This document shows positions 1 to 44,165 of a DNA stretch of 64,000 bases, piece after piece. Position 1 is the stretch's first letter. Every line of letters begins with the position of its first letter. The stretch comes from an uncultured Saprospiraceae bacterium (lineage in GTDB: Bacteria > Bacteroidota > Bacteroidia > Chitinophagales > Saprospiraceae). The notes beneath the pieces are model-generated. The model ran no database searches. It was not told the origin of the DNA and saw only the letters and a program-made list of their open reading frames with translations. The translations under genes were made by a program, and so were the position numbers. The DNA is taken from assembly GCA_938045585.1 (NCBI GenBank), contig CALIAU010000008.1, positions 51,360 to 115,359 on the forward strand, given 5' to 3'.

Positions 1-922
1 AGAATCTATCGGCTTAGTAACAATTGACTCATTAAGCTTTAGTGACTTTTCATTTTCTATTGGAGCGAATTACCTTATAGGCGAATCTTCTGCCATTTAT
101 GGTAATTTCTTGAGAGCATTTTCATTACCTGGTGTTACAACCCGAACGTTTGTAAAGCCAGATGGGAATGAAATCATCAACAATTTTGAATTAGGTTACA
201 GAGCTGGATTTAATGATCTTACTGTAGATGCAACATTGTTCTCTACACGTATCAATAACAGGGTTGCCCTAGCATTAAATGATGTGACTAGGGAATTTGA
301 ACCACGTGCTGGAGGAACAAATAAAATACTAGGAGCCGAACTAGGTCTTACCTATACGCCTAAAGCAATAAAAGGATTAATTCTTCAAGCGAATGTTACT
401 TCGCAAAATTCAGAATACGTAGAATTCAAAATTCCATTGACTGTAAATAGTGACGGAATGACGAATGTAGACCAATCCGGCGACCTTTTTGGAGTTAACA
501 TAGAAGGATCTGGTACTGATGCAGTTATTAATCTAGCAGGAAATCAAGTAGAGGCTACGCCTACTCTTATTTACAGTATGAATCTCGCTTATAAAAATGA
601 CAACTTTGGAGCAAATTTTGGCGGATTTACGTATGCGGGTACCGTGGCTGATGCTACTAACTTATTCGAAACTCCTAACTTATCTGTTTATAATGCCGGA
701 GCACATTATGCACTGCAATTAGGAACAGGTGAGGTTAAAATCGGATTTAGAATAAAGAATGTATTTAATCTCGCTACACCGCAATTAATTTTTGCAACGA
801 ATAGAGGAGATGCACAATTACGTGAAAAACAAGCAAATCCAAATCCAGGTGAGGATAGATTAGCATGGGCTATAATCCAAAACCCTAGGAGAGTACTTTT
901 AACAATAGGATATAATTTCTAA
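1..922 (+). CDS. TonB-dependent receptor, C-terminal part (5' end outside window)
   Basis: The frame is open from base 2, so the gene begins before the window and only about 306 C-terminal residues are seen. They form alternating beta-strand segments, with phrases typical of the outer-membrane barrel of TonB-dependent receptors (NFELGYRAGF, LYTPKAIKG-like strands, FRIKNVFN) and a terminal aromatic strand ending RRVLLTIGYNF, the usual C-terminal Phe signature. Such receptors import large or scarce nutrients using TonB energy. It lies directly upstream of the catabolic cluster on the same strand, so it probably imports the substrate of that cluster (inference). The plug and TonB box are not visible. 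Family confidence is high; the ligand is unknown. Confidence 0.85.
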   Translation, partial: ESIGLVTIDSLSFSDFSFSIGANYLIGESSAIYGNFLRAFSLPGVTTRTFVKPDGNEIINNFELGYRAGFNDLTVDATLFSTRINNRVALALNDVTREFEPRAGGTNKILGAELGLTYTPKAIKGLILQANVTSQNSEYVEFKIPLTVNSDGMTNVDQSGDLFGVNIEGSGTDAVINLAGNQVEATPTLIYSMNLAYKNDNFGANFGGFTYAGTVADATNLFETPNLSVYNAGAHYALQLGTGEVKIGFRIKNVFNLATPQLIFATNRGDAQLREKQANPNPGEDRLAWAIIQNPRRVLLTIGYNF

Positions 923-1017
923 AAGAACCAACTAGAACAACAAGAGAAGGGACAGGCTATTATATGCACTGTTCCTTCTTCTTTTATTGTTTCAAAAAGT
1001 TAAAAACTAAAGCATAC

Positions 1018-1530
1018 ATGGATCTTAAAGTATTTCCAAAACACACAGGCGTCTGGGAAGGTACATACAAACGAATTAATCCAGACGGAAGCCTTCGGGA
1101 TGCATGGAAATGTAGACTTTCTGTACGATTTGAAGGAGCAAATAAATACCACCAAGTAAACGAATACATGTGGGATGATGGGCACTACGAATGCTTAGAT
1201 TTTGGCGTATGTGCATTCAATGATAAGGGAGAACTCATCTTTGATAATCCACGTATTCTTGGAAAAGCATGGGAGACGCAGAATAGTATCGTCTTACATT
1301 GGAGCTACAAGGATCGACCCGGTTCCAAACTCTATGAAATTATTGACCTAATCGGTCCTAAAGAGGAACATAGAATTCGCGTTTGGAAATGGTCTCAGAA
1401 TGATGAATTTCAAGGCCTTACTATGATAGATGAACGCAAAGTTAAAACCGTTGAAGAAATTGATCCTGCATTCTGGGCAAATTTACCTAACACAAGAACA
1501 AACGGTCAAGCTTCCAGATCAGATAAATAA
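1018..1530 (+). CDS. Lipocalin-like small-molecule-binding protein (DUF3598-like)
   Basis: A 170-residue soluble protein with no signal peptide. The ATG at 1018 is preferred over the longer frame from 964, because the upstream residues (HCSFFFYCFKK) look like translated leader. The pattern HTGVWEGTYKRINPDG near the N-terminus, followed by alternating strands with repeated Trp and Tyr, resembles DUF3598/lipocalin-type beta-barrels that bind fatty acids or other hydrophobic ligands. It sits between the TonB receptor and the dehydratase genes, 12 bases before the latter, so it is probably a binding or isomerase-like accessory of the pathway. No catalytic residues can be assigned. Confidence 0.55.
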   Translation: MDLKVFPKHTGVWEGTYKRINPDGSLRDAWKCRLSVRFEGANKYHQVNEYMWDDGHYECLDFGVCAFNDKGELIFDNPRILGKAWETQNSIVLHWSYKDRPGSKLYEIIDLIGPKEEHRIRVWKWSQNDEFQGLTMIDERKVKTVEEIDPAFWANLPNTRTNGQASRSDK

Positions 1531-1542
1531 AACTACACAGAC

Positions 1543-2811
1543 ATGGGAATGACAATTACTGAAAAGATAATGGCTAATCAGAGCGGACGCAGTTCTGTTA
1601 AGCCAGGTGAATTAGTTTGGGTAGATGTCCAGTCAGTAATGACAATGGATTACCTGGGTAAAACGTGTTTTGAAAAATTCAAGTCCTTGGGTAAAACCGA
1701 GGTTTTTGATAAAGATCGTGTGATCTGCGTATCTGACCATCTCGTCCCTCCTCCGAATCAAAAGTTTGCGACCATGTTAAATGAATGGCGCGAAGTTGTA
1801 AAAGAACATGATATCACTCATTTCTACGATCTAGGAAGACAGGGCATTGCACATCAAATAATGGTGGAGCAAGGCCATGTTCTTCCTGGTACCGTCAGTA
1901 TTGGTACAGATTCCCATGCCAACACCTATGGCGCAGCAGGGGCCATAGGAAATGCTGTGGGAGTAACAGATGCAGCTGTAGCAATGGCAACTGGTAAAGC
2001 GTGGTTCCGCGTTCCTTCTGCTGTTAAATTTCACATTACAGGTGAATGGCAGCCCTTTGTTATGGCAAAAGATCTTTCACTTCATATTATGGGCATGATG
2101 CACTGGAATGGTCACCTGATTTATAAAACCTTAGAGTTTGATGGTCCAGGGATCACTTCTCTGAGCATGGCAGGTAGAATGACACTGTGTAACATGACAG
2201 TAGATCTTGGCGCTAAAAATGGTATTGTTGCTCCTGATGAAACCACTAAAGCCTACTTAGAAGGAAGAGCAAAGGGCGATTGGGAAATGATAGCCTCTGA
2301 TGAAGATGCAGTATACGAGCAGAGTTATGAGATAAATCTATCCAACCTGGGTCCCACTATTGCCCTACCTGACAAATTAGATGATACGGTACCAATCGAA
2401 AAAGCAATTGGAAAAAAATTCAATAAAGCCTTTGTAGGTACCTGCACAAATGGAAGATTGGAGGACCTTGAGATATTAGCACGAATAATGAAAGGTAAAC
2501 AAATACACAGAGATGTAAATATGATCGTTGTACCCGCATCGCAAACTGTCTATCTAGATGCATTGAGGGCTGGATATTTAGAAACTCTGATTATGGCAGG
2601 TGCAGCTATAGACACACCAAGTTGTGCAGCTTGTGCAGGCATACACACAGGTGTCGCTGGTGATGGGGACATCGTATTGAGCGCTGGAAATAGAAATATG
2701 AAAGGTAGGATGGGAAGTAAAAATGCACAAATTTACCTCACCTCTCCAGCCGTTGTCGCCGCTTCCGCAATTCGCGGTGAAATTACAGATCCTAGGACCT
2801 TTGATATATAG
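1543..2811 (+). CDS. Aconitase/3-isopropylmalate dehydratase family, large subunit
   Basis: A 422-residue protein of the LeuC2/homoaconitase/dimethylmaleate-hydratase size class. Visible signatures are GTDSHANTYGAAGAIGNAVG (about 126-145) and the 4Fe-4S ligands: Cys in VGTCTNGR near 300 and two Cys in SCAACAG near 360. Members add or remove water across a C=C next to carboxylates. The small subunit follows at 4162 after an intervening amine-oxidase gene. No leuA, leuB or other leucine genes are nearby, so a catabolic dehydratase is more likely than leucine biosynthesis; DmdA-type (2,3-dimethylmalate) chemistry is one precedent. Family is certain from motifs; the substrate is inferred and open. 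Confidence 0.85.
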   Translation: MGMTITEKIMANQSGRSSVKPGELVWVDVQSVMTMDYLGKTCFEKFKSLGKTEVFDKDRVICVSDHLVPPPNQKFATMLNEWREVVKEHDITHFYDLGRQGIAHQIMVEQGHVLPGTVSIGTDSHANTYGAAGAIGNAVGVTDAAVAMATGKAWFRVPSAVKFHITGEWQPFVMAKDLSLHIMGMMHWNGHLIYKTLEFDGPGITSLSMAGRMTLCNMTVDLGAKNGIVAPDETTKAYLEGRAKGDWEMIASDEDAVYEQSYEINLSNLGPTIALPDKLDDTVPIEKAIGKKFNKAFVGTCTNGRLEDLEILARIMKGKQIHRDVNMIVVPASQTVYLDALRAGYLETLIMAGAAIDTPSCAACAGIHTGVAGDGDIVLSAGNRNMKGRMGSKNAQIYLTSPAVVAASAIRGEITDPRTFDI

Positions 2812-4152
2812 ATGGAACGCAGACAATTCATAAAAAACACTTCTATTGCTAGCACAGCTTTGCTCACAGGACTTGCAGCTTGCAATAATAGATATGATAC
2901 TGAAGTCCTTATCTTAGGGGGTGGGTTTAGCGGCCTTTGTCTAGCACACTTACTTGATTCTAAAAACATAGACTACATTTTACTCGAAGGCAGCCAAAGA
3001 TTAGGTGGACGCATGTTCATGCATCCAGATATAAAACGGGATGTAGGGGGCAGAGGAATCGGAGACAAATACCTTGAAACTATGAAAATCGTTCAAGCAC
3101 TTGATATTGAACTAATTGATATAAGTTCAGAAATTTCCAGCCCTACGTCTATTTATTTAAATGGTACTCTTTATCCAGATTGGAAAGACAGTAAAACGAA
3201 TCCAAGACTTTTAGAGTTTACCAGTAAAGCTGATCTGAGTTTGGAATACCTAGAGGAATGGTATCAAAGACCTGACATGGATCTAAGCTATGCTGAATAC
3301 TTGACGAGAAATGGTCTAAGTAAAGAAGAGCTTGATCTTATTAATATATCTTCTAATTATAATGATATCTATAAAACTTCTGTACTTAATCGTTTACACA
3401 GTAGTGCCTTCAGAAAGTTCAACGGATCAAAAAAAATATACAACTTCAAAGGCGGGACTGGTAATTTTATATCAAAGATCGAAAAAAGTTTACTGCGCCC
3501 CATTAAAACTGGAAAATTCATAACTGCAATTTCAGATAATAAAGAAAGTATCCAAGTAACTTGTGCAGATGGCTCAAGCTATTCTGCAGCTTCCGCGGTG
3601 ACTACGCTTCCGTTTTCCACTTTACGCGATGTCAACATATCGGTAACTTTAAATAAAAATCAAATTAAAGCAATTCAAGCTCTAGAATATACACGTATTA
3701 CTCAAATACATTTTGATGCAAAAGAAAAATTTTGGGAACAGGATGCTGCTCCTCCTTCTATGTGGACTGATACCCCTTTAGAACGCATAATGGATGTAAA
3801 TGCAGATCCAGACACCTATCATTTGGCAGCATGGATAAATGGAAAAGGGACACATGCAATTGACAAAATGACGGATAATGAAATAAAAGACTTCACCCTG
3901 AAAGAAATGGCAAAAATTAGACCTGCCTCAGAGGGGAAATTAGAATATATTGGGACGCATAGCTGGGGTAATTACAAATTTAGCAAAGGTGCTTATGCAG
4001 AGTTTCTACCTGGTCAGGCTGCCTGGTTTGAAGATATGATTCGTCCTGCTGGCCGATTGCATTTTGCCGGCGAACATACTGCTAAAGCGTCTAGAGGAAT
4101 TGAAGGAGCAGCAGAGTCTGCAAGACGGGTATTTAATGAATTAACAGCTTAA
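2812..4152 (+). CDS. Tat-exported flavin-dependent amine oxidase, putative lipoprotein
   Basis: 446 residues starting right after the previous stop. The N-terminus ERRQFIKNT is a twin-arginine motif, followed by a hydrophobic stretch ending LAAC, a lipobox, so the protein is probably folded with FAD in the cytoplasm and exported by Tat, then lipidated. The Rossmann FAD motif ILGGGFSG and GGRM follow near residues 33-62, and the C-terminal FAD contact motif FAGEHTAKASRGIEGA is near 415-430, as in monoamine oxidase/phytoene desaturase relatives. It would oxidise an amine or a CH-CH bond of the imported substrate outside the inner membrane. It splits the two dehydratase subunits, which suggests co-expression with them. 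The substrate is unknown. Confidence 0.8.
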   Translation: MERRQFIKNTSIASTALLTGLAACNNRYDTEVLILGGGFSGLCLAHLLDSKNIDYILLEGSQRLGGRMFMHPDIKRDVGGRGIGDKYLETMKIVQALDIELIDISSEISSPTSIYLNGTLYPDWKDSKTNPRLLEFTSKADLSLEYLEEWYQRPDMDLSYAEYLTRNGLSKEELDLINISSNYNDIYKTSVLNRLHSSAFRKFNGSKKIYNFKGGTGNFISKIEKSLLRPIKTGKFITAISDNKESIQVTCADGSSYSAASAVTTLPFSTLRDVNISVTLNKNQIKAIQALEYTRITQIHFDAKEKFWEQDAAPPSMWTDTPLERIMDVNADPDTYHLAAWINGKGTHAIDKMTDNEIKDFTLKEMAKIRPASEGKLEYIGTHSWGNYKFSKGAYAEFLPGQAAWFEDMIRPAGRLHFAGEHTAKASRGIEGAAESARRVFNELTA

Positions 4153-4161
4153 ACAAGAACT

Positions 4162-4686
4162 ATGATTAAAGGAAAATGCTGGGTTGCTGATGACTATGTG
4201 ATGGCTTACAATATAATTATACAAGAATATTGGACTACAGCTATTGATAAGGAAGATAACAGTAGATGGGTAATGGCAGGAGTCCATGAAGATTTTAATT
4301 CTGAGAATGCATTTAAAGACAGGGGATATACTTTTATTGTGGCAGGTCATAATTTTGCGGGTGGTGGTAAAAGTATAGAACACGTTATTGCAGGCCTTAT
4401 GGGTGCAGGAATTAAAACTGTCTTTGCAACAAGTTTTGCTAGATTGCAATTTAGAAATGCTATCAATTATGGTCTTCCCTTTGTAACATCAAAAGATATT
4501 GATAAAGATTGTAGCACAGGAGATGAATTAGAATATAATCCTCAGACAGGTGAGATAAAAAATTTAACAACAGGAAAATCCTTTGATTCACTACCAGCAG
4601 CCCCCTTTGTAGCAAAAGTAGGACAGGCTGGAGGACTCATGAATTATGTGCGTGACAAGATCGCAAAAGGAGAAGCTATTACTTAA
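4162..4686 (+). CDS. Aconitase/isopropylmalate dehydratase family, small (swivel) subunit
   Basis: A 174-residue LeuD-like swivel-domain protein. Conserved features are the region around AGHNFAGGGKSIEH (about 62-75) and SFARLQFRNAINYGLP (about 92-107). In LeuD and aconitase the first motif is normally G(C)GSSREH; here the loop reads GGGKSIEH, so the usual Ser-Ser-Arg that contacts substrate carboxylate is replaced by Lys-Ser-Ile. That argues for a substrate other than isopropylmalate. It pairs with the large subunit at 1543-2811 and precedes the aldolase by 12 bases. Family confidence is high; specificity is unknown. Confidence 0.82.
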   Translation: MIKGKCWVADDYVMAYNIIIQEYWTTAIDKEDNSRWVMAGVHEDFNSENAFKDRGYTFIVAGHNFAGGGKSIEHVIAGLMGAGIKTVFATSFARLQFRNAINYGLPFVTSKDIDKDCSTGDELEYNPQTGEIKNLTTGKSFDSLPAAPFVAKVGQAGGLMNYVRDKIAKGEAIT

Positions 4687-4698
4687 ATAAGAACAGCG

Positions 4699-5460
4699 AT
4701 GAAAGAAAATAAATTAAAAAGCCGAATCGCAGAAGGAAAAGCCTGCTACGGCGTAATAGCTCCAACCACAGATCCAACCATTTGTGAATACATTGGTTTA
4801 AACGGGTTTGACTATTATATGATCGATGGAGAACACGGCCAAATTACCGCCTCAGATGTTACAAATCTTGTAAGGGCCTGCGAACTGGTAAATTGTACTC
4901 CCCTAGCCAGAATACGCTCAGTGGATAAGAAATTGATTCTGCAATATATGGATGCAGGAGTCATGGGAGTTATGATGCCAAGTATAGACAATGCAGAAGA
5001 TGTAAGTGCACTCGTAGATGCTGTAAAATATCCTCCATTGGGCAGCAGAGGGCTGGGACCTATTCGAGCTGCAGAATACATGCAAGGCAGTATGAGTCAG
5101 AAAGAATATGTAGAATTTGCAAATGAGCAAACATTAGTACTTCCACAAATTGAAAGTATGGAATGTGTCAAAAACTTGGAACAAATTTGTAAGGTAAAAG
5201 GTGTCGATGGGTTTATAATCGGCCCTCGCGATCTAGCTATGTCCATGGGATATTATGACGGTCCTGGACATCCTGAAGTTAAACAGCTCTTAGACGAAAT
5301 CTTTAATACAATTCTTGCATCAGGGAAGTTTTATGGGACTGTTGCTGGAACATCTGAAGCAGCACAGGCTCTCGTAGATAAAGGCGCAAGCATGATATTA
5401 AATTCTGTACAAGGACTTATAAAAACATCAAGTAAATCATTTCTTAAAGAGAGAAAATAA
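4699..5460 (+). CDS. HpcH/HpaI family class II aldolase
   Basis: 253 residues with the signature of the HpcH/HpaI (2-oxo-acid) aldolase family: MIDGEHG near 39-45, an Arg and a DAG region near 72-90, PPLGSRGLGP near 112-122, PQIES near 149-153 (metal-binding Glu), and IGPRDLAMSMG near 174-184. These metal-dependent enzymes cleave 4-hydroxy-2-oxo acids or related hydroxyacids, usually to pyruvate or oxaloacetate-type products and an aldehyde. Placed after a hydro-lyase, it would cleave the hydrated product into central metabolites (inference). The start is ATG, and the next gene follows after 5 bases. Confidence 0.85.
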   Translation: MKENKLKSRIAEGKACYGVIAPTTDPTICEYIGLNGFDYYMIDGEHGQITASDVTNLVRACELVNCTPLARIRSVDKKLILQYMDAGVMGVMMPSIDNAEDVSALVDAVKYPPLGSRGLGPIRAAEYMQGSMSQKEYVEFANEQTLVLPQIESMECVKNLEQICKVKGVDGFIIGPRDLAMSMGYYDGPGHPEVKQLLDEIFNTILASGKFYGTVAGTSEAAQALVDKGASMILNSVQGLIKTSSKSFLKERK

Positions 5461-5465
5461 ATAAT

Positions 5466-5777
5466 ATGGCATCATTAGTAGTTTTATTTAATTTAAAAGA
5501 CAAAGCAGCAAAACAAGCTTATGAAAAATGGGCACAAACCACTGACGTTCCTACGGTTAAAGCCTTAGTTTCTATTGATGACTTTCGTGTCTACAGACTA
5601 AATAGTATGATGGGAACAGAAGCTGCTCCACCCTATGAATATTGCGAAGTTATTGATATAAATGACATGGATAAATTTGGTCAGGAGGTAGCCACAGAAA
5701 CTATGCAGCGAGTGGCTGGAGAATTCCAAGAATTTGCTGACGCACCTATCTTTATTATATCTGAACAATTTGCCTAA
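5466..5777 (+). CDS. REDY-like HapK family small protein (ferredoxin-like fold)
   Basis: A 103-residue protein whose pattern LVVLFNLKDKAA, YEKWAQTTDVPTVKAL, APPYEYCEVIDIND and ATETMQRVAGEF resembles the REDY-like/HapK family, dimeric alpha/beta barrels related to EthD/ABM proteins. HapK was named from a prodigiosin-type gene cluster, but its relatives occur widely with no assigned reaction. The gene lies tightly between the aldolase and an SDR, with one base between its stop and the SDR ATG, so it is part of the operon. It may isomerise or bind a pathway intermediate; this is inference. Confidence 0.6.
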   Translation: MASLVVLFNLKDKAAKQAYEKWAQTTDVPTVKALVSIDDFRVYRLNSMMGTEAAPPYEYCEVIDINDMDKFGQEVATETMQRVAGEFQEFADAPIFIISEQFA

Positions 5778-5778
5778 A

Positions 5779-6615
5779 ATGAAAGGACTAAAAGGAAAAA
5801 CAGCAATTATTACAGGCTCAGGTAGAAAAGGTGGCATAGGTGAAGCAATTGCTATGGCTCTTGCTAAACATGGATGCAATGTTGTAATCTCGGACATTGG
5901 TGAGCCTAAAGGTAAAGAGTTTTCCAAGGACCATGTAGGCACCTCTAGTGAAATGAGACAAATAGTTCGTGAAATAAATAAGCTAAAAAAAGGGAAAGCT
6001 ACAGCAATTCCCTGTGATGTGAGAAATGAAAAAGCTGTATCTGATATGCTTAAAAAGACAGTCAAAAAATTTGGCAGTATGGATATCATGGTCAACAATG
6101 CTGGTGTGGGTTACATTATGGAACCATTCACTGAATTCAAAGAAAAAAGTTGGAATGCAGTACTTGATGTGAACTTAAAAGGTGCCTTCCTGTGCTCAAA
6201 GCATGGTGCCATCCAAATGCAAAAACAAGGTAAAGGTGGATCTATAATCAACATCGCTAGCCAAGCCGCAAAATCAGGCTTCCCCTTTGCTGCAGCATAC
6301 ACCGCTTCCAAGCATGGCATGATAGGACTGACAAGGTCTAACGCTGTAGAACTGGGTAAAGATAAAATCAGAGTAAATGCAGTATGTCCCAATCATATCA
6401 CTACTGGATTAGGCCATTGGCAGAATAAATTTTTCAGTGAAAAACTTGGCTTAAATTATGACGACTACCTCCAAGGAATAAAAGATAAAAACCCGCTTGG
6501 TCGTACAGGACTAGTACAAGACATTGCTAATGCAGTCTGCTTTTTGGCGTCAGATCATGCCTCCTATATCACAGGGGAAGCAATGAACGTAAGTGGTGGT
6601 GAAGAATACCACTAA
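5779..6615 (+). CDS. Short-chain dehydrogenase/reductase (SDR)
   Basis: 278 residues from the ATG at 5779; a longer frame from TTG 5734 overlaps the previous gene and is unlikely. Classical SDR features are visible: the cofactor loop ITGSGRKGGIGEAIA near the N-terminus, CDVRNE, NNAGVGY near 105, the catalytic Ser around IASQAA, and YTASKHG carrying Tyr and Lys. It ends with the usual SDRs tail ITGEAMNVSGGEEY. It would oxidise or reduce a hydroxyl/keto group with NAD(P). A 30-residue insert after the second strand (KEFSKDHVGTSSEM) is longer than in most SDRs. Substrate unknown. Confidence 0.85.
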   Translation: MKGLKGKTAIITGSGRKGGIGEAIAMALAKHGCNVVISDIGEPKGKEFSKDHVGTSSEMRQIVREINKLKKGKATAIPCDVRNEKAVSDMLKKTVKKFGSMDIMVNNAGVGYIMEPFTEFKEKSWNAVLDVNLKGAFLCSKHGAIQMQKQGKGGSIINIASQAAKSGFPFAAAYTASKHGMIGLTRSNAVELGKDKIRVNAVCPNHITTGLGHWQNKFFSEKLGLNYDDYLQGIKDKNPLGRTGLVQDIANAVCFLASDHASYITGEAMNVSGGEEYH

Positions 6616-6637
6616 ACAAATTTATTAACTAAAATAT

Positions 6638-8713: not shown

Positions 8714-10140
8714 AAAAATCCTTCGACATACTAATTGTAGGTGCAGGCACTGCTGGCATGGCATGTGCCATCGAAGCAGCACAAAGAGGCTTGTCCGTTG
8801 GTATAGTTGAAAAATCGGATCATATTGGTGGTGCTATGCATTGGTCTGGAGGCCATATGAGCGGGGGTGGCACAGCCTTACAAAAAAGAAAAGGGATCGA
8901 TGATAGTCCAGAAGACCATTACAAAGACATATTACGCATCAGCAAGGGTACAGGAGACCTTAAGCTGATACAAAAAGCCGTACAAGAAGCACCAAAGACG
9001 ATTGATTGGTTAGATGAGCATGGTTTTGAATTTGCTCCTGAAGCGCCCAGAATTATTTATGGACACGTAGCCTACACTAAGCCCAGAACCCAGTATGGAA
9101 TAGACAAAGCAAAATCAATCCTCAAGGTGATGCAAACGATGTGGGATTCCCTTAAAGGGAATATCGAATGCTTCCTGGAGCATCCCGTTTTAGGAATAGA
9201 TCAAGTCAATGGAAAATGGACACGTATCGTTTGCTCTACGTATGAAGGGCAACTTGTTCTTACAGGGGATTACCTAGTTATAACAACAGGTGGCTATGGA
9301 AGTAATCCAGACTATTTCAGAGCAAAGCATCCGGATACACCTCTTATGAGCTCCACCTACCCTACTGCTACAGGGGACGGACACAAAATGCTTGAAGAAA
9401 ATAAAGGGATGTTTCGAATGGCAGACTTACATCTTCCAAGTTTGGGTGGCATGGAATTAGAACCTGGAACAGGACGGTGCAATTTCAATGAAGCTTGGGC
9501 GATGGTTATGACATCCATATATAGAAGACCAAGAGACATTTATGTAAACTTAGATGGCCATCGTTTTATGAATGAAGACGAGACAGATGCAGATATACGC
9601 GAACGTCATGTTACCAAACAAAAATCCTGGCGTTTCTGGGTAATCTTTGATGAAGAAGGACTCATGGCAAAAGATGAAAATGGAAATGAAAACCCAATTG
9701 TAATAGGCTGGACAATTGAACAAATAAAAAAAGAAGCGCAGCGCGGTAAATGCATCTTTAAAGCACATAGCATTGAAGGACTAGCAGAAAGTACAAAACT
9801 GCCTTATGAAACTCTATCGCGTACCATAGCAAACTTTAATCGCTATGTAGACCAAGGCGAAGATCCCGACTTCAATAGAGAACACCTAGAATATAAACTA
9901 AGTACAGCCCCCTACTACGCAATTCTTGTCTATGCCTCCGTCCTAGTAAGCTTCGGTGGCATCGCTGTCAATTCTGATCTTCAAATATTGGACACAGATG
10001 GACAGGTACAAACAGGAATTTATGGGGCAGGAGAATTATTAGGCTTAGGTGCATTAAGTGGAAACGCCTTTTGTAGTGGTATGGCTATAACGCCTGCCCT
10101 GAGTTTTGGAAGAATACTTGGACAGAGCCTAGGCAAATAA
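8710..10140 (+). CDS. FAD-dependent oxidoreductase, fumarate reductase/ketosteroid dehydrogenase type
   Basis: 476 residues from a TTG start that overlaps the hyuA stop (translational coupling). The N-terminal FAD motif is ILIVGAGTAGMACAIEA, then HIGGAMHWSGG; the C-terminus has GIYGAGELLGLGALSGN, which closes the FAD_binding_2 fold shared by fumarate reductase, urocanate reductase and 3-ketosteroid dehydrogenases. No heme-binding domain or signal peptide is seen, so it is probably cytoplasmic and takes or donates electrons by flavin only. It reduces or introduces a C=C bond next to a carbonyl. It separates hyuA from hyuB. Family is sure; direction and substrate are unknown. Confidence 0.82.
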   Translation: MKKSFDILIVGAGTAGMACAIEAAQRGLSVGIVEKSDHIGGAMHWSGGHMSGGGTALQKRKGIDDSPEDHYKDILRISKGTGDLKLIQKAVQEAPKTIDWLDEHGFEFAPEAPRIIYGHVAYTKPRTQYGIDKAKSILKVMQTMWDSLKGNIECFLEHPVLGIDQVNGKWTRIVCSTYEGQLVLTGDYLVITTGGYGSNPDYFRAKHPDTPLMSSTYPTATGDGHKMLEENKGMFRMADLHLPSLGGMELEPGTGRCNFNEAWAMVMTSIYRRPRDIYVNLDGHRFMNEDETDADIRERHVTKQKSWRFWVIFDEEGLMAKDENGNENPIVIGWTIEQIKKEAQRGKCIFKAHSIEGLAESTKLPYETLSRTIANFNRYVDQGEDPDFNREHLEYKLSTAPYYAILVYASVLVSFGGIAVNSDLQILDTDGQVQTGIYGAGELLGLGALSGNAFCSGMAITPALSFGRILGQSLGK

Positions 10141-10144
10141 ATGC

Positions 10145-10171
10145 AAATTAGTTAACTTTGTTAACTAATTT
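10145..10171. promoter_or_regulatory. Perfect 12-bp inverted repeat upstream of hyuB
   Basis: AAATTAGTTAAC, spacer TTT, then GTTAACTAATTT: a perfect palindrome with 12-bp arms in the 47-base gap between the flavoprotein stop (10140) and the GTG of hyuB (10188). It contains TAACTTTG, which fits the Bacteroidota -7 promoter element TAnnTTTG. It could be an operator overlapping an internal promoter, or an RNA hairpin. There is no long U-run after it, so a simple terminator is less likely. Function is inferred. Confidence 0.5.
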
Positions 10172-10187
10172 TACAATACGTAAAAAC

Positions 10188-11807
10188 GTGAGAAAGACCA
10201 AAACAAAATTTGATTCAATTAGTCTATCCATCTTGTGGGCAAGACTGATAAGTATCGTAGATGAGGCGGGTACTACCCTGCAACGGACCTCCTTTTCTAC
10301 AGTAACTAGGGAATCAAATGATTTCGCCGTAGTACTAATGGATAGAGATGGCAGATCAATCGCCCAATCCAGTATTTCCGTGCCTTCTTTTTTAGGTGTT
10401 TTACCTATTCTCACTAAAGCCTTATTAAAAGATTATTTTTCGCACGATGCATGGGAAGAAGGGGATGTAGTAATGACTAATGACCCATGGCTCTGTGCAG
10501 GACACAAACCTGATATTGGAATTGTTTCTCCTATTTTTCACCAAAACGAGCTAATTGGTTTCATTGGCACAATCGCACATTCGCCCGACATGGGAGGCGT
10601 ACTTTGGGGTGCAGGGTCTAGAGATCTATATGAAGAAGGACTAATGGTTCCTCCTACCAAACTTATGCAGGCTGGCGTTCCTAACCTAACCTTGTTTAAT
10701 ATTTTGGAAGCCAACGTTAGAGCCCCCATGCAAACTATAGGTGACATCAAAGCGCAAATAGCAGCAAATGATCAAGGAATCCGTTCTCTCGCAAAACTGA
10801 TGGAAGAAAATAATCTTACCGATTTACAAGACTTAGCAGATGTCATTATTGATAATACAGAAGAGTCTATGCGAAAAGCATTGGCAGCTGCCCCCGATGG
10901 CACATTTACCTATAGTTATGACACAGATGGTGACGGCAAAGGCAATCCTTGTCATTTTGAAATTGCAATAGAAATACAAGGAGACGAAATTTTGGTTGAC
11001 TATGCAGGTACCTCAGATGCCCACCCTTTAAGCATTAATGCAGTCTTAAACTATACCTTCGCTTACACAGCCTATCCTATTAAATGTGCTTTTAACCCAG
11101 AAATCCCAAATAATGATGGCGCATTTTATCCTATAAAAGTCATTGCGCCTGAAGGCTGTCTAGTCAATGCACAAAAACCTGTTCCCTTGGGTGCGCGGAA
11201 TATCACTGGCAACATGCTACATTCTGTTGTATTCGGTGCACTCGCAAAAGTAATTCCTAACAAAATACAGGCGGACTGTGGCAGTGCATGCTGGTGTATT
11301 GTTTTAAACGGGACACACCACGGGAATGAATTTGTTGAATACTTCTTCCTAAATGGTGGATATGGTGCACGTCCTCAATTAGATGGCCCACACTGCCTAT
11401 CCTTCCCAACAAATGTTGCAAATGTACCCATTGAGGTTTTAGAAAATGATGTCCCCATCTTAGTTACACAAAAAGCACTCGTAAATAACTCTGCAGGAAA
11501 TGGACAGTATAGAGGTGGCTTAGGTCAAATATTTGGATTCAAAAATATTGGTGAAAAAGATCTCAACATATCCATCCTTGCAGAAAAAACTGTCTCAAAC
11601 GCTAAAGGACTACTCGGTGGAGAAGATGGTGCGCAAGGTAAGGTCGAAATTATTCCTCATAGAGACTTTCCTTCTAAAGGCCTTGACAAATTAAAACCCG
11701 GTGAAGAACTCATTCTTACCCTCCCTGGTGGCGCAGGATATGGGCCACCATCCAAACGAGACAAAACATTAATTGAACGAGATCGTTTATTAAAGTATAT
11801 TGATTAA
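10188..11807 (+). CDS. Hydantoinase/oxoprolinase B subunit (HyuB family)
   Basis: About 539 residues from the GTG at 10188. The frame extends to TTG 10158, but that lies inside the palindrome and adds no family sequence. HyuB hallmarks: SIVDEAGTTLQRTSFSTVTRES near the N-terminus, the metal-site region NDPWLCAGHKPDIGIVSPIF, IAHSPDMGG, DYAGTSDAHPLSINA, RNITGNMLHSVVFGAL, and the C-terminal LPGGAGYGPPSKRD. With HyuA it forms the ATP-dependent hydantoinase/5-oxoprolinase/acetone-carboxylase-type enzyme, acting on cyclic amides or carboxylating ketones depending on the subtype. No gamma subunit of acetone carboxylase is nearby, which favours an amidohydrolase role (inference). Confidence 0.85.
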   Translation: MRKTKTKFDSISLSILWARLISIVDEAGTTLQRTSFSTVTRESNDFAVVLMDRDGRSIAQSSISVPSFLGVLPILTKALLKDYFSHDAWEEGDVVMTNDPWLCAGHKPDIGIVSPIFHQNELIGFIGTIAHSPDMGGVLWGAGSRDLYEEGLMVPPTKLMQAGVPNLTLFNILEANVRAPMQTIGDIKAQIAANDQGIRSLAKLMEENNLTDLQDLADVIIDNTEESMRKALAAAPDGTFTYSYDTDGDGKGNPCHFEIAIEIQGDEILVDYAGTSDAHPLSINAVLNYTFAYTAYPIKCAFNPEIPNNDGAFYPIKVIAPEGCLVNAQKPVPLGARNITGNMLHSVVFGALAKVIPNKIQADCGSACWCIVLNGTHHGNEFVEYFFLNGGYGARPQLDGPHCLSFPTNVANVPIEVLENDVPILVTQKALVNNSAGNGQYRGGLGQIFGFKNIGEKDLNISILAEKTVSNAKGLLGGEDGAQGKVEIIPHRDFPSKGLDKLKPGEELILTLPGGAGYGPPSKRDKTLIERDRLLKYID

Positions 11808-11837
11808 CTAATAACTTTCATTTCGAAAATAAAGAAC

Positions 11838-13025
11838 ATGACAGCTAAAAATCTTCCTCCTTCGTATGACAACATTGCACGGCATGAAGTCTTTCCTGAA
11901 TTAAATCACGATGAGCGAGCACGCTATAATTTCTTAGCTAATCTTAATAAGCATTTGGCACATGTTTCACAAGGGAATGCCATCGCTTTTGAACAAAGAG
12001 TACAACCCAAATTTAAAGAAGAACATGGTAGAGATTTTAAAACTAAAGAAGAACTAGGAGCAGCCATGGCCAAGGACCAACACTATCAAACCTGGTCCGC
12101 ACTGCGTAGGTCCACTATGGAAATGCGACAGCAGGCAGGTAGATCTATGACCTATCGACAGGCATTTGCCCTTAAGAAACGCGTAGATAAACTTAATGAA
12201 GGAAAGGATAGTTTGATTCTAGATGATTCAGTCCAAGTACCTCCCTATCTATTAGCAGTGGATAATCATCTCATGCCGGGTAGTTATCACACAGAATTGA
12301 TTGAGGGAGATGTTGCAAATGCCGCAAATTATGATGGCGGTTTATTTGTAACAACAGCTGGATTACTAGGAAAATATTCTGACGGAGGAGGTGAAGCAAT
12401 TGCACAATGGTTAAAAAACAATCATCCAGAATTTGCTCCTAAACGAATTCTTGACATCGGTTGTGGTATAGGTCACAATACACTTCCCATAGCCAAACAC
12501 TATCCTGATGCTGAGGTTGTTGCTATTGATACAGGTAAACCTATGTTGCGCTATGGACATGCCCGCTCGGTAGCTTTAGGATACGATAATGTAAAGTTCA
12601 TGCAAGCAGAGGCATCCAAACTTCCGTTTGAAGATGAATCATTTGATTGGATTCAGACTACCATGTTCTTACACGAAACAGGAGGTAAATCTATTTATAA
12701 TATAATGAAAGAAATTCATCGTTGTCTTAAAAAAGGTGGTATTACCATGCACATTGAACAACCACAATATACTGATGATATGTCTCTTTATGAAAAATGG
12801 ATTAGAGATTGGGATGCGTACAATAATTCGGAACCCTACTGGTCTAAAATGCATGACATTGACCCTAAAGAACTAATGGAAGCTTCTGGTTTTAATGGGG
12901 AACACTATATGCAGATCGGTGCACAAGCAGTTAATGATTTAGATGATGGCACTCAGAAAGCGGACGAACCAGAGGATCACGGTCGCTCTCCCATTTGGAA
13001 TGTCTTTGGAGTATGGAAAAAATAA
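11838..13025 (+). CDS. SAM-dependent class I methyltransferase with long N-terminal region
   Basis: 395 residues. The C-terminal half is a clear Methyltransf_11/25 domain: motif I ILDIGCGIGHNTLPIA near 205, acidic AIDTGKPM near 227, then LPFEDESFDWIQTTMFLHE near 260-278 and KEIHRCLKKGG. The first ~190 residues are polar and helical, with no recognised domain; they may dimerise or bind a partner. It lies 30 bases after hyuB, in line with the cluster. It could methylate, or in a catabolic context accept a methyl group with a corrinoid-free route, but only methyl transfer to an unknown acceptor is supported. Cytoplasmic. Confidence 0.75.
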   Translation: MTAKNLPPSYDNIARHEVFPELNHDERARYNFLANLNKHLAHVSQGNAIAFEQRVQPKFKEEHGRDFKTKEELGAAMAKDQHYQTWSALRRSTMEMRQQAGRSMTYRQAFALKKRVDKLNEGKDSLILDDSVQVPPYLLAVDNHLMPGSYHTELIEGDVANAANYDGGLFVTTAGLLGKYSDGGGEAIAQWLKNNHPEFAPKRILDIGCGIGHNTLPIAKHYPDAEVVAIDTGKPMLRYGHARSVALGYDNVKFMQAEASKLPFEDESFDWIQTTMFLHETGGKSIYNIMKEIHRCLKKGGITMHIEQPQYTDDMSLYEKWIRDWDAYNNSEPYWSKMHDIDPKELMEASGFNGEHYMQIGAQAVNDLDDGTQKADEPEDHGRSPIWNVFGVWKK

Positions 13026-13036
13026 AAATAAAGAGT

Positions 13037-13399
13037 ATGGAAAATAGCGTTGATTATATAGGTATCGCATCAAACAAACCCAAGGGAGCACGCCCCTACT
13101 TTTTCGACGATCCCGCCGTAGAACGTGTCATGAATATTGCTATGGCAATCGGTATGGAATTAGGAGTAGCCAGAGAACGGCTTGACTCCTTAGAAAGAAT
13201 TCTTGAAGAAAAAGGAATTATGACTAGACAAGAGATTGAGAACTATACTCCTACGAGTAAAAAAATTGAAACCGAACGACAGCAATGGCATAGTGAATAC
13301 ATTTCTCGCATACTGAGAATAATTCAACAAGAAATGGAGCAAATGAAAAATCCAGACAAAACACTACACGAAATTGCTGACGATATTGACAAAATGTAA
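13037..13399 (+). CDS. Uncharacterised 120-residue helical protein
   Basis: Not recognised. The ATG at 13037, just 12 bases after the methyltransferase stop, is preferred over a frame start at 12995 inside that gene. The protein has a short polar N-terminus, a motif GARPYFFDDPAVERVMN, then amphipathic helices rich in Glu, Arg and Ile (VARERLDSLERILEEKG, SRILRIIQQEMEQM) typical of a coiled-coil or helical bundle. No signal peptide, no membrane segment. Its position suggests an accessory subunit of the methyltransferase or the following SnoaL-like protein. Confidence 0.6.
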   Translation: MENSVDYIGIASNKPKGARPYFFDDPAVERVMNIAMAIGMELGVARERLDSLERILEEKGIMTRQEIENYTPTSKKIETERQQWHSEYISRILRIIQQEMEQMKNPDKTLHEIADDIDKM

Positions 13400-13400
13400 C

Positions 13401-13817
13401 ATGACTCTAGCAGCAAGAACAAGGAAATTTTGGGACGCAGTCCAAGCAAATGATCTGCAAGGTATTGAAGATGCATACTACCCTACCGAAGATACCTATG
13501 TCGTACTGGAAGGCCCTAGATATACTACACATGGAGTGAGCAAAATAATTAAAGGATGGAAAGATTTCTGCAACTCCCCCATAACTCTAAAAAGTATAGA
13601 CTGGATAGAAGGCCCATTTGAAGAAATAGATTCTGCTATGGGCTGGATCAGCGGAGTAACAGATATAGCTATTACTATAAATGAAAAAACGTTTATCAAT
13701 AGGTTTCGCTGTAGTTTTGTCTATACTAAGTACAAAGACGATTGGCGTATTAAACATGAACATGTTTCCGCGCCTATGAAAGATCCTTACGGAATAGGTG
13801 ATTGGTTAAAGACATAA
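13401..13817 (+). CDS. SnoaL/NTF2-like fold protein
   Basis: 138 residues from the ATG at 13401, one base after the previous stop; the longer frame from 13374 overlaps that gene. The layout RKFWDAVQANDLQGIEDAYYPTEDTYVVLEGP, then a W-rich middle (GMGWISGVTDIAI) and RCSFVYTKYKDDWRIKHEH, fits the cone-shaped NTF2/SnoaL/DUF4440 fold: N-terminal helices around a pocket, then curved beta-sheet. Such proteins are cyclases, isomerases, dehydratases or simple binders of small ligands. The two late His residues could line the pocket. Role in the pathway is inferred from position only. Confidence 0.6.
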   Translation: MTLAARTRKFWDAVQANDLQGIEDAYYPTEDTYVVLEGPRYTTHGVSKIIKGWKDFCNSPITLKSIDWIEGPFEEIDSAMGWISGVTDIAITINEKTFINRFRCSFVYTKYKDDWRIKHEHVSAPMKDPYGIGDWLKT

Positions 13818-13821
13818 TAAT

Positions 13822-14463
13822 ATGCATATTCTCATTGTCCACGCGCATGAAAATCCTGATTCATTCTGTTCAACTCTTGCACACCTAGCAAAGAAAACTT
13901 TTGAAGAAGCAGGTCATACAACGGATATAAGTGACCTATATGCTATGGGCTTTAATCCAGTAGGATCTATACATGACTTTACAAAAACCAGCAATAACGA
14001 CTATTATAAATACGCAACAGAGCAGTTATACGCCTCAGAAAATGATGCCTATGTCCACACATTACAACAAGAAATGGACAAACTCATTCTTGCAGATATT
14101 CTCATCTTTAATTTCCCACTCTGGTGGTGGTCTATGCCCGCCATATTAAAAGGCTGGGTAGACAGAGTACTCGCCTATGGCGTAGCATATGGAGGTAGCT
14201 ACGGTTTTAATGAGCAAGGAAGATTTAAAGGCAAACGTGCTTTTATCTGCACTACAACCGGTAGCCCAAAACTAGCCTATACTTCTGACGGACACAACGA
14301 TAAATCAATCCATGCAATCCTAGATAACATCCACAGCGGAATCTTTGAATTAATTGGCTTTACAGTAACAGAACCCTTTATCGCATATGGAGTCTCACGT
14401 ATCTCACAAGAAGAACGTGCAGCTATCTTAATTGACTATAAACAATTTTTATCCCAACTCTAA
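13822..14463 (+). CDS. NAD(P)H:quinone oxidoreductase family flavoprotein (Flavodoxin_2 fold)
   Basis: 213 residues. MHILIVHAHENPDSFCSTL is the FMN/FAD phosphate-binding start of the NQO1/MdaB/KefF family, and FNFPLWWWSMPAILKGWVDRV (about 93-113) is its diagnostic flavin-contacting segment, followed by ICTTTGSP. These enzymes move two electrons from NAD(P)H to quinones or other electron-poor rings. Four bases separate it from the SnoaL-like gene; it is the last + strand gene of the catabolic block and meets a convergent SDR gene one base later. Confidence 0.82.
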   Translation: MHILIVHAHENPDSFCSTLAHLAKKTFEEAGHTTDISDLYAMGFNPVGSIHDFTKTSNNDYYKYATEQLYASENDAYVHTLQQEMDKLILADILIFNFPLWWWSMPAILKGWVDRVLAYGVAYGGSYGFNEQGRFKGKRAFICTTTGSPKLAYTSDGHNDKSIHAILDNIHSGIFELIGFTVTEPFIAYGVSRISQEERAAILIDYKQFLSQL

Positions 14464-14464
14464 T

Positions 14465-15205
14465 TTAGAATTGAACACCTCCATTAACCTGAATACACTC
14501 CCCTGTAATGTGTGCCGCAGCATCACTCAATAGAAACATAATCACACTTGCAATTTCCGCTGGCAAGGCTATCCGGCCCAATGGAATCATCTTTTCATAC
14601 GCCTCCAGATTAAAGCGAGTACCCCCATTTTTATCATAGATAAACTTAGTATCTACAGCTCCTGGAGCTAGAGTATTCACACGTATATTAGGCGCTAGTT
14701 CTACTGCAAGCGTTTTACTAAGCGATATTATTGCAGCCTTTGATGCAGAGTAAGGACCGTACTGCTTCCGACCGATAAATGCTAAGCCACTAGACATCGT
14801 GACTATTGCAGCATGGCCTGTATCACGCCGCATAATTTTACTGAACGAAGTGCAAGCTAACAAACAAGAAGTCAGACTAACATCAAAAGTCTCTGACCAT
14901 TCCTCAAGATTCATTGCGTCCAAAGATGCAAAATGCGCAATCTTCCCACTTAAACACACCAATCCATCAATCATGCCATAGCTTTTACTCACCTGCTGCG
15001 CACAAGCCTCCATAGCAGTTTCGTTCAAAGTATCTATCTGAAAATAATCCTGCACAAACAAGTTTTCTGCAGCTGCTTCTTGGATATCAAGCCCCACAAG
15101 CTTTGCCCCTGCATTCTTGAGTTCCTTCGATAATGCAATCCCAATACCACTATTAGCACCTACTATCACATAAACTAAACCCTCCGCTTTAAATTGCGCT
15201 TTCAT
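14465..15205 (-). CDS. Short-chain dehydrogenase/reductase (SDR)
   Basis: 246 residues. The cofactor loop IVGANSGIGIALS, an acidic DIQEA after the second strand (favouring NAD), the catalytic MSSGLAF serine region, and YGPYSASKAA with Tyr and Lys are all visible; the tail ITGECIQVNGGVQF is typical. The NAG motif is changed to LVCLSGKIAH. Its start overlaps the end of the upstream BASS transporter gene by 17 bases, so the two form an operon on the - strand, convergent with the catabolic cluster. Likely acts on the imported compound or a pathway alcohol. Confidence 0.82.
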   Translation of the reverse strand: MKAQFKAEGLVYVIVGANSGIGIALSKELKNAGAKLVGLDIQEAAAENLFVQDYFQIDTLNETAMEACAQQVSKSYGMIDGLVCLSGKIAHFASLDAMNLEEWSETFDVSLTSCLLACTSFSKIMRRDTGHAAIVTMSSGLAFIGRKQYGPYSASKAAIISLSKTLAVELAPNIRVNTLAPGAVDTKFIYDKNGGTRFNLEAYEKMIPLGRIALPAEIASVIMFLLSDAAAHITGECIQVNGGVQF

Positions 15206-16088
15206 TCTTTAATATTTTTCTAAAAACAAAAATTAATCCTGCAGCTGTTAAGCACATAAGCAAGCCATATACACCAGCAGGCACAGCCATCAAGGGACTA
15301 TTTAATAAACCCGGAGCAGTCGCAATTGCCATACCCAAAACATTATTTTGCATTCCCGTTTCTATAGAAATAGTGATCGATTGCCTTGTGTCCAAGCCCC
15401 CTAATCGAGCTACCCCATAACCAAAGGCTAAGGTCACAATATTTAAGAGCAAAACTGACCAAAAAACAGTACGAACGAAATACATTACATCACCCAATTG
15501 CACCAATTTTATATAAATTAATACCAAGGCGATTACAATCACAAGCACAGACAAAATAGCAATTGCAGTATTTACCCTTTTTACAAAATCTGGGAACGTA
15601 TAATGTATACATACTCCAAGCGCAACAGGCAACACCGTCAACTTAAAAATATTATACACTGTCTTCAAAAAAGGGAGCTGTATTTGAGCAGATTCACCAT
15701 CCATAAAATACCCTAGCGACCAGTTAAGGAGGATTGGGATACTTACAATAGTTAGTAAACTTGAGAAGGCCGTCAAAGTAATAGACAAGGCCGTATCGCC
15801 CTTAGAAAGATGCGAAATTAAATTTGAAACTGCACCTCCAGGACTCACTGCAACTACCATCATTCCCATCGCAAAAGCAGCCTCTAAAGGAATAAGTTTT
15901 ACTATTACAAAAGCTATCAGAGGCAAGAATACAATTTGACTTAACAATCCTAAACTTACTGCCTTGGGATAAATTGCAACGCGCTTAAAATCCCCAATGG
16001 ACAAGGTCATCCCCATCCCGAACATGATGAAAAATAGTAAAAACTGAAGTATGACTGGTATGTAACTGAGTAACTCCGACAATCCCAT
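15189..16088 (-). CDS. BASS-family (bile acid:sodium symporter-like) transporter
   Basis: 299 residues, almost wholly hydrophobic, with about nine or ten membrane helices. Features of the BASS/SBF fold are MFGMGMTLSIGDFKR at the first helix turn, VAVSPGGAVSNLISHLSKGD in the cross-over region near 80-100, and ISIETGMQNNVLGMAIA near 225-240, matching the conserved E-x-G-x-Q-N motif. BASS proteins import organic anions (bile acids, 2-oxo acids, sulfonated or carboxylated compounds) with sodium. Next to the catabolic cluster it is the natural inner-membrane partner of the TonB receptor at the start of the window (inference). Confidence 0.88.
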   Translation of the reverse strand: MGLSELLSYIPVILQFLLFFIMFGMGMTLSIGDFKRVAIYPKAVSLGLLSQIVFLPLIAFVIVKLIPLEAAFAMGMMVVAVSPGGAVSNLISHLSKGDTALSITLTAFSSLLTIVSIPILLNWSLGYFMDGESAQIQLPFLKTVYNIFKLTVLPVALGVCIHYTFPDFVKRVNTAIAILSVLVIVIALVLIYIKLVQLGDVMYFVRTVFWSVLLLNIVTLAFGYGVARLGGLDTRQSITISIETGMQNNVLGMAIATAPGLLNSPLMAVPAGVYGLLMCLTAAGLIFVFRKILKNESAI

Positions 16089-17661: not shown

Positions 17662-17665
17662 TCAT

Positions 17666-40911: not shown

Positions 40912-41106
40912 TTTTTAAGAAGAATAGTACTATTTATCTGTAGGCGAAGTCGGTCTCAGCAATTTGTCTTCCATTGCGATCATTATCAATTCTAAATCTA
41001 AATGATTGGTTCTATTCATATTGTAACGCCAAAACTAGAAATGATTTTTTGAAATAGTTAAATTTATACGTACTGACTATCTCATACGAATGAAAAATCA
41101 TACATT

Positions 41107-42219: not shown

Positions 42220-42261
42220 ACAGCATTATCAAGTACTGATGATTCTAACTAATTAAAAAAA

Positions 42262-42447
42262 ATGAAAGACCAAACAGGATATTTACTAATCGGAATTGGA
42301 ATCGCTTCAATTTTAGTTGGTATTTATGGAGCCTTCCGAAGTGGAGAATTGATTGACTCATTAAGTGGAGTTGTGATTGGAGTAGCATTAATTGGTACCG
42401 TAATTATTGAACGAAATAAAAAAGATAAATCCAATAAAACCAACTAA
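42262..42447 (+). CDS. Small two-helix membrane protein
   Basis: 61 residues: GYLLIGIGIASILVGIYGA and SLSGVVIGVALIGTVIIE are two hydrophobic helices, followed by a Lys-rich tail (RNKKDKSNKTN). Good ATG start, clean size, and in line with the neighbours; no function can be assigned. Confidence 0.6.
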   Translation: MKDQTGYLLIGIGIASILVGIYGAFRSGELIDSLSGVVIGVALIGTVIIERNKKDKSNKTN

Positions 42448-42501
42448 AAGTAGCTTATAACTATATTTGCTTGTCTGCAGTATAATGAAAATCTAAAAAT
42501 T

Positions 42502-43227: not shown

Positions 43228-43250
43228 AACTACTGCTAATGATTTAACTA

Positions 43251-43369: not shown

Positions 43370-43524
43370 TGTAGGCATTGTCGCTCTGAGAAACACGTTA
43401 CTCTAAAAACTTCTTAAAATTGCTAATTTAAACAAGAGCATTTAATACAAGTGCTAAGGGTACTAACTAGAATTTGGTCATGGATTAGTTAACTTTATTG
43501 ATTTGTTAGTGGTAATGAATTGAA

Positions 43525-44100: not shown

Positions 44101-44165
44101 TTTCTTACCATAGATCAATTTTTAATAAGATTTGAATACAGACCTTTGTATTCAAAATCAGTACA

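Follow-up and report, generated by a model that had tools for sequence, protein, structure and literature searches.

The window analysed here, a stretch of 64,000 nt from an uncultured Saprospiraceae bacterium (contig CALIAU010000008.1, positions 51,360-115,359; G000:C8:51360-115359), holds at its positions 1-16088 about one third of a gene island of ~48 kb. We suggest, with a probability of roughly 40%, that this island imports a compound derived from pyrroles and mineralises it, the most likely substrate being a bilin, a linear tetrapyrrole that would stem from chlorophyll or heme. The enzyme families that it encodes point to oxidation, ring opening, hydration of alkylmaleates and C-C cleavage, a chemistry that is well supported at the family level. 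A bilin-type oligopyrrole is favoured because the island protein CpeT belongs to a bilin-lyase family that is strongly enriched in carriers of the island, because the model of a DUF3598 protein is a high-confidence calycin barrel matching bilin-lyase structures, because every tested carrier has two hydro-lyase sets, as would be required by the two ring types of a bilin, and because the natural products reported for chlorophyll include maleimides and hematinic acid. Together with DUF1838 proteins, CpeT and the predicted calycin-fold DUF3598 protein lend indirect support to a tetrapyrrole substrate.

A first-pass annotation of positions 1-16088, made from the sequence alone, had listed 17 open reading frames (ORFs), all of which lie where it placed them and belong to the kinds of family that it named, one small unassigned protein excepted (Table 1). 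The limits that it drew for the cluster were too narrow: the island continues for ~32 kb upstream, to about G000:C8:19500.

Gene order is conserved across genomes

A scan with LeuC yielded 73 loci, from which seven outgroup loci (L064-L070, with leuC 43-44% identical) were excluded to leave 66. A further 15 were too short, and gene order was assessed in the 51 loci that reach 9.9 kb or more beyond the downstream end of leuC. LeuC, LeuD, HpcH, HapK, SDR1, HyuA and HyuB are encoded collinearly and on one strand in 41 of these 51; the ten loci without the full collinear core are L026, L029, L032, L033, L041, L044, L045, L046, L048 and L059. The conserved order is carried by Saprospiraceae, Flavobacteriaceae, Cytophagales, Chitinophagales, Neomarinimicrobiota and one of two Kapaibacterium. 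The last was considered as a third phylum and is placed within Bacteroidota, so that the phyla concerned are Bacteroidota and Neomarinimicrobiota. The genes had been read at first pass as one coherent catabolic set, a reading to be given up if they proved to be always unlinked in other genomes; the reverse is the case, and the conserved order bears the reading out.

When tblastn matches anywhere in the 66 loci are counted, many of these loci being truncated, LeuD is found in 64, DUF3598 and HpcH in 58 each, HapK and SDR1 in 56 each, HyuA in 54, HyuB in 45, the methyltransferase in 40, the FAD_binding_2 flavoprotein in 34, the Tat flavin amine oxidase in 33, the TonB receptor in 23, SnoaL in 21, U134 in 17 and NQO in 12. 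The small protein U134 adjoins the methyltransferase in all 17 loci in which it is matched, and the usual place of the DUF3598-like gene is directly 5' of leuC. Relatives of NQO (54-62%) stand on the other strand, upstream of leuC, in 12 of the 66 loci. The BASS transporter is present as first annotated, but its position is conserved in one relative only: outside the window's genome it was matched in one of 88 loci (L095, Saprospiraceae, 59%, in the same place directly after SnoaL), a count to be read with the fact that most other loci end before this position and that L095 is the only Saprospiraceae relative followed past its flank. Maribacter vaceletii, followed further, has no BASS gene. 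For SDR2 only generic matches of ~29-34% were found in other loci, and its membership is not supported.

The island extends upstream as a second module

Upstream of the window the island encodes a CN_hydrolase-family amidase, a MarR regulator, a 377-amino-acid protein without a Pfam family, PTGR-type and quinone-oxidoreductase-type dehydrogenases, an alpha/beta hydrolase, MFS carriers, double-VOC proteins, a CpeT-family protein, a cytochrome c, a peroxiredoxin-like protein, a second flavin amine oxidase with a Tat-like start, a cyclic amidohydrolase, a CaiB CoA-transferase, a CMD protein, LeuD2, LeuC2, an HMG-CoA-lyase-type protein (HMGL), an aldehyde dehydrogenase and two DUF1838 proteins. 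Most of these families come from direct domain scans of the island proteins; those of the dehydrogenases, the alpha/beta hydrolase, one VOC, one MFS and one DUF1838 protein were assigned via relatives in other loci, and the peroxiredoxin and one MFS carrier were named by eye. We define module 2 as the second hydro-lyase (LeuCD2, with LeuC2 42% identical to LeuC), the HMG-CoA-lyase type, the CoA-transferase, the cyclic amidohydrolase, the Tat flavin oxidase with its cytochrome c, and the VOC, CpeT and DUF1838 proteins.

In the window's genome module 2 lies before the TonB gene, which is itself cut by the window edge (the complete gene, of 863 amino acids, is at L081:11690-14281), and in L095 directly after SnoaL and BASS; the two modules travel together despite their differing arrangement. 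Maribacter vaceletii had seemed to lack module 2, of which nothing was found in L073, L089 and L090; LeuC2 and CaiB were located ~20 kb from leuC, on its other side. The island of this species is without the amidohydrolase and has a YjgF/RidA-type protein and a CN_hydrolase at L089:15432-15977 and L090:1-904. The VOC27 proteins were considered as extradiol ring-cleavage enzymes and left out of the mechanism because they have no invariant His; the VOC36 family, which keeps an invariant His and Glu, may still be a candidate.

Enzyme families point to ring opening, hydration and cleavage

LeuC carries Cys301, Cys361 and Cys364, which we take to be the motif positions at which the family binds its iron-sulfur cluster, and a separate swivel subunit is also present, as in hydro-lyases of the LeuCD/DmdAB type. 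A role as 3-isopropylmalate dehydratase in leucine biosynthesis was rejected because LeuC stays under both equivalog cut-offs (TIGR02083, 448.5 of 610.65 bits; TIGR00170, 202.5 of 560.25 bits). The HpcH-type protein is a class II aldolase with intact IDGEH, QIES and GPRDL sequences, presumably the catalytic and metal motifs of HpcH/HpaI enzymes; as a 4-hydroxy-2-oxoheptanedioate aldolase HpaI it scores 163.3 of 368.8 bits (TIGR02311), short of the equivalog cut-off. HapK falls within its Pfam family. As judged by eye, the flavin amine oxidase of the window has RRQFIK and then LAAC in its N-terminus.

HyuA and HyuB both have the domains of the hydantoinase/oxoprolinase family. Among solved chains HyuA is closest to N-methylhydantoinase (7hk5; 5.5e-122, 411.7 bits), ahead of acetophenone carboxylase (7.4e-82, 279.1 bits) and acetone carboxylase (7.2e-62, 213.1 bits). 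This ranking speaks for an ATP-driven reaction that opens a cyclic amide or imide. The best NCBIfam match of HyuA is caprolactamase alpha, and the CapAB cut-offs are not reached by either subunit (443.7 of 1000 bits, for a HyuA query lacking ~90 residues at the N-terminus, and 188.8 of 1000 bits). The sequence of ring opening, hydro-lyase and C-C lyase proposed at first pass is supported by this affinity and by a sphingomonad set of imide opener, amidase, LeuCD and lyase around the same core, described below. A cyclic amidohydrolase is present in 21 of 50 carriers; this family includes imidases, one of them titled as maleimide-hydrolysing (reference list of PMC4437985).

The start of hyuA lies ~270 bases ahead of the first TTG given in the ORF list and is a codon other than ATG, GTG or TTG. 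At the position where orthologues mostly have ATG, the codon is ATC in the window (region 6626-6655) and in L005 and L028, and because no ATG, GTG or TTG lies between the preceding stop and the conserved HyuA residues in any of the three, hyuA likely starts at ATC in these three Saprospiraceae-type genomes.

Putative pigment-binding proteins co-occur with the island

Fifty carrier genomes were picked from the 66 loci, and a phylum sample of 198 genomes served as background. All 50 carriers have DUF1838, a LeuC2 relative (57-82% identical) together with a LeuC1-type gene (40-45%), and CaiB (mostly 55-76%, split in one; this count covers carriers only). In the phylum sample HapK occurs in four genomes, the window's own included, and the same four have DUF1838 and a LeuC2 at least 67% identical, the other 87 genomes with a LeuC2 match (E 1e-60) reaching 45% at most. 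The shared distribution gives a Fisher value of 1.6e-8 with relatedness ignored; the other three HapK genomes share one genus, and the independent count is therefore two genera. DUF1838 is a nearly unstudied family, met in the open-access PMC literature in one paper, on aurantimycin. It follows the island in Bacteroidota samples and is predicted to fold as a barrel, for which no clear structural relative was found.

CpeT is present in 34 of the 50 carriers, in up to six copies, versus 14 of 194 HapK-negative genomes (Fisher 1.7e-18, relatedness ignored). Within the phylum sample it occurs in 18 of 198 genomes, among them all four with HapK, and in the three of these other than the window's own it lies ~13 kb from HapK. 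The island CpeT scores 77.6 bits against Pfam CpeT (cut-off 21), which places it in the CpeT/CpcT bilin lyase family, and the only solved relative found is the phycocyanobilin lyase CpcT (4o4o, E 0.0023). Pfam did not confirm two other stretches considered as CpeT-like (L080:7967-8713 and L081:6639-7214). Off the island, on another contig, the window's genome has a second CpeT-family gene (L082:9256-9897), beside a primosomal-helicase-like gene named by eye. The DUF3598 protein is modelled with high confidence as a calycin barrel, and the model matches structures of DUF3598, BFA1, nitrobindin and bilin lyases.

A related gene set is found on sphingomonad plasmids

With a match required over at least 80% of its length, the methyltransferase was found at 49.9-52.1% over 97-98% of the length in eight sphingomonad plasmid records, and three clusters were examined (pJE1, pSA1 and pTomTYG65b). 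All three have the SDR1-HapK and methyltransferase-U134 pairs back to back, plus an MFS relative; the SDR beside HapK is 51-53% identical to SDR1, and U134, beside the methyltransferase, matches at 47-48% (L084-L086). Additional genes on pJE1 and pSA1 encode a quinone-oxidoreductase relative and LeuCD and CaiB relatives. On pJE1, where HyuA is matched at 36% and HyuB at 26%, the cluster includes two PuuE-like polysaccharide-deacetylase-family proteins, HMGL, two LeuCD pairs and an isochorismatase-family protein that is nearest, among specifically named chains, to N-carbamoylsarcosine amidohydrolases. It also encodes a methylisocitrate-lyase-family protein (NCBIfam PrpB, 252.6 of 354.4 bits), whose closest solved chain is the carboxyphosphonate phosphonomutase 4iqd (7.6e-62), with dimethylmalate lyase 3fa3 at 1.6e-41.

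In Novosphingobium resinovorum a second stretch of pSA1, ~80 kb away (L092), holds a DUF3598-like gene (35%), DUF1838, a Tat-oxidase relative, LeuCD genes and two methyltransferase paralogues (33-34%), one of them beside a U134 paralogue. DUF1838 was found in 12 plasmid records, six of which are among the eight with the methyltransferase; these six are all replicons of >1 Mb, with one species represented twice. On pP6W1, DUF1838 stands beside a TonB gene without the rest of the island. The sphingomonad version, whose plasmid hosts include strains from soil and plants, gave no match to the island CpeT. Steroidal glycoalkaloid catabolism was considered as its role on the Sphingobium TomTYG65 plasmid and rejected, as the cluster goes unmentioned in the excerpted text of PMC10653915; a described substrate for the pJE1-type cluster was not found in the open-access PMC literature.

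Proposed pathway and alternative explanations

In the pathway that we propose, the TonB receptor and MFS carriers would take up the substrate, and CpeT, by its family, and DUF3598, by its predicted fold, perhaps with the DUF1838 proteins, could bind the pigment. The Tat flavin oxidases, to which a cytochrome c gene is linked, would oxidise the substrate outside the cytoplasm with cytochrome c as acceptor. HyuAB would then open the imide or lactam rings in an ATP-dependent reaction, with the cyclic amidohydrolase and the nitrilase-family amidase as further openers in some carriers. The two LeuCD-type hydro-lyases, both of whose large subunits occur in every tested carrier, would hydrate substituted maleates. 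The resulting alkylmalate could be split by the HpcH-type aldolase and, in module 2, through CoA transfer by CaiB and cleavage by the HMG-CoA-lyase-type enzyme, to pyruvate-type and carboxylic acid products. Two parallel sets for hydration and cleavage would suit two bilin ring types, one with methyl/vinyl or ethyl and the other with methyl/propionate substituents. The system further includes HapK, SDR1, SnoaL and the methyltransferase-U134 pair, without an assigned step. Both maleimides and hematinic acid have been reported in senescent leaves and in lake sediments (PMC7318184); the study itself, in its excerpted text, detected hematinic acid and no maleimides.

Several points weigh against a bilin. 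CpeT is missing in 16 of the 50 carriers, a heme oxygenase was looked for and none was found, spirocyclases and fatty-acid-binding proteins share the fold of the DUF3598 model, and barrels of this kind bind many ligands. The absence of CpeT from those carriers, the lack of a heme oxygenase, the range of calycin ligands and the CpeT-free sphingomonad version would all sit well with the same type of pathway acting on another nitrogen heterocycle, an alkaloid or non-tetrapyrrole natural product, with the barrels carrying that ligand. We regard this as a serious possibility, if short of an even chance; the CpeT enrichment in carriers speaks against it, as does the presence of two hydro-lyase sets in all 50 carriers, which suits a molecule with two ring types.

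It is improbable that HyuAB is instead a ketone carboxylase of the acetone/acetophenone type, with no imide involved and with LeuCD and HpcH acting on carboxylated skeletons. The family does include carboxylases, and acetophenone carboxylase subunits are among the NCBIfam matches, but HyuA stands closer to N-methylhydantoinase than to either carboxylase, its best NCBIfam match is a caprolactamase, and amidohydrolase and nitrilase-family genes lie nearby, as do, in the sphingomonads, the two PuuE-like and the isochorismatase-family genes. Still less probable is a biosynthetic cluster for a pyrrole-type metabolite, at which HapK/RedY and the methyltransferase might hint. The Pfam family is named REDY-like protein HapK, and HapK/RedY is linked to prodigiosin clusters; against biosynthesis stand the TonB receptor, several MFS carriers, two hydro-lyases, two C-C lyases, the CoA-transferase and the amidase-type genes, and no polyketide or peptide assembly-line family was found among the island proteins scanned. 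The connection to prodigiosin-like pigments suggested at first pass is not supported, HapK being a family match only. Least credible is an aerobic variant of the Eubacterium barkeri nicotinate route, which passes via methyleneglutarate and dimethylmaleate: a DmdAB-type hydro-lyase, an amidohydrolase and the match of the sphingomonad lyase to dimethylmalate lyase (with 4iqd closer) recall it, but no cobalamin mutase or nicotinate hydroxylase family was found among the island proteins scanned, and the two LeuCD sets and the barrel proteins would be left unexplained.

To return to the bilin pathway, neither a bacterial bilin-mineralising gene set nor a description of the cluster was found among the matches listed from the open-access PMC literature, and no paper was found there on a route by which bacteria mineralise the pyrrolic and maleimide products of chlorophyll; nor did a substrate already described for an orthologous cluster, which the first-pass annotation had named as a possible objection, appear there. 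The island might, although we think this rather unlikely, be the first bacterial route to complete bilin mineralisation (of phyllobilins, phycobilins or heme bilins) to be delimited genetically. The pigment would in that case be handled by DUF1838, DUF3598 and CpeT proteins of non-photosynthetic bacteria and oxidised by periplasmic flavin dehydrogenases, the two kinds of pyrrole ring being consumed along two parallel hydration-lyase routes, each equipped with ring openers; a common core would have served for its assembly in two or more lineages, one being Bacteroidota with Neomarinimicrobiota and another the sphingomonads. Bacteria with such a pathway would provide a sink, so far missing, for a pigment that ranks among the most abundant on Earth, chlorophyll being made and lost at a scale of 10^12 kg per year (PMC7318184). 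It would also supply gene names for following the spread and expression of pigment mineralisation in natural communities, and roles for DUF1838, DUF3598, HapK and the CpeT proteins of heterotrophs. With another heterocycle as substrate, the island would still be a large catabolic system of two phyla, partly rebuilt in sphingomonads, of which no description was found in the open-access PMC literature.

Features of the window and its surroundings

The ORFs of positions 1-16088 and the two DUF1838 genes upstream are collected in Table 1. After the cluster, at window positions 16522-20824, lie genes for an HlyD-family adaptor and an RND-transporter-like protein, the latter judged by eye. Window positions 40001-48000 have a G+C content of 0.32-0.34, versus 0.35-0.40 in the rest of the window, and may mark acquired DNA.

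Table 1. Features of the island, with window positions unless a locus is given.
Feature	Position	Strand	Evidence
TonB-dependent receptor, C-terminal part	2..922	+	PF00593 69.3 bits
DUF3598-like protein, predicted calycin (lipocalin-like) barrel	1018..1530	+	DUF3598_N 24.1 bits, cut-off 22
LeuC/DmdA-type hydro-lyase large subunit	1543..2811	+	PF00330; NF001614 516.7 bits, cut-off 385
Flavin amine oxidase, Tat- and lipoprotein-like N-terminus	2812..4152	+	PF01593 142.7 bits
LeuD/DmdB-type hydro-lyase small subunit	4162..4686	+	PF00694 28.3 bits; TIGR02084 98.8 bits, under cut-off
HpcH/HpaI class II aldolase	4699..5460	+	PF03328 124.6 bits; PDB 2vws 5.3e-39
HapK/REDY-like protein	5466..5777	+	PF11639 44 bits, cut-off 25; profile match 2jdj 9.3e-11
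SDR1 dehydrogenase, core member	5779..6615	+	PF13561 207.1 bits
HyuA, hydantoinase/oxoprolinase subunit A, probable ATC start	6644..8713	+	PF01968/PF05378/PF19278
FAD_binding_2 flavoprotein (flavocytochrome c / fumarate reductase type)	8710..10140	+	PF00890 176.9 bits
HyuB, hydantoinase/oxoprolinase subunit B	10158..11807	+	PF02538 476.9 bits
S-adenosylmethionine (SAM)-dependent methyltransferase, ~190-amino-acid N-terminal extension	11838..13025	+	PF13649
U134, small unassigned protein	13037..13399	+	No match in Pfam and NCBIfam
SnoaL-like protein	13401..13817	+	PF13474 (SnoaL_3) 31.1 bits
NAD(P)H quinone-reductase-like flavoprotein (NQO)	13822..14463	+	PF02525 (Flavodoxin_2) 160.7 bits
SDR2, membership doubtful	14465..15205	-	PF13561
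SBF/BASS transporter	15189..16088	-	PF01758 124.4 bits
DUF1838 genes	L081:8247-9164 and 10566-11462	-	

Comparison with known systems

DmdAB and dimethylmalate lyase form the end of nicotinate fermentation. There, hydration of an alkylmaleate by a LeuCD-type enzyme is followed by cleavage of the alkylmalate, which is the order proposed for the island, and the sphingomonad version includes a member of the PrpB/dimethylmalate-lyase family. The Bacteroidota version differs in its HpcH-type aldolase, two hydro-lyases, HyuAB and Tat flavin oxidases, and nothing in it indicates nicotinate. The island has both subunits of the HyuAB family, to which caprolactamase CapAB, N-methylhydantoinase and 5-oxoprolinase belong, but they lie far under the equivalog cut-offs for CapAB. 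The sphingomonad clusters resemble the island in their methyltransferase-U134 and SDR1-HapK pairs and MFS carrier on all three plasmids, whereas imide-opener, amidase and lyase families are additional there. With the CpcT/CpeT proteins of cyanobacteria the island protein and those of the CpeT-positive carriers share the Pfam CpeT domain, and CpcT is the nearest solved chain; unlike them, the island CpeT proteins occur in non-photosynthetic groups, have signal-peptide-like starts (by eye) and frames of ~225-260 or 325-420 amino acids, and are often present in several copies.

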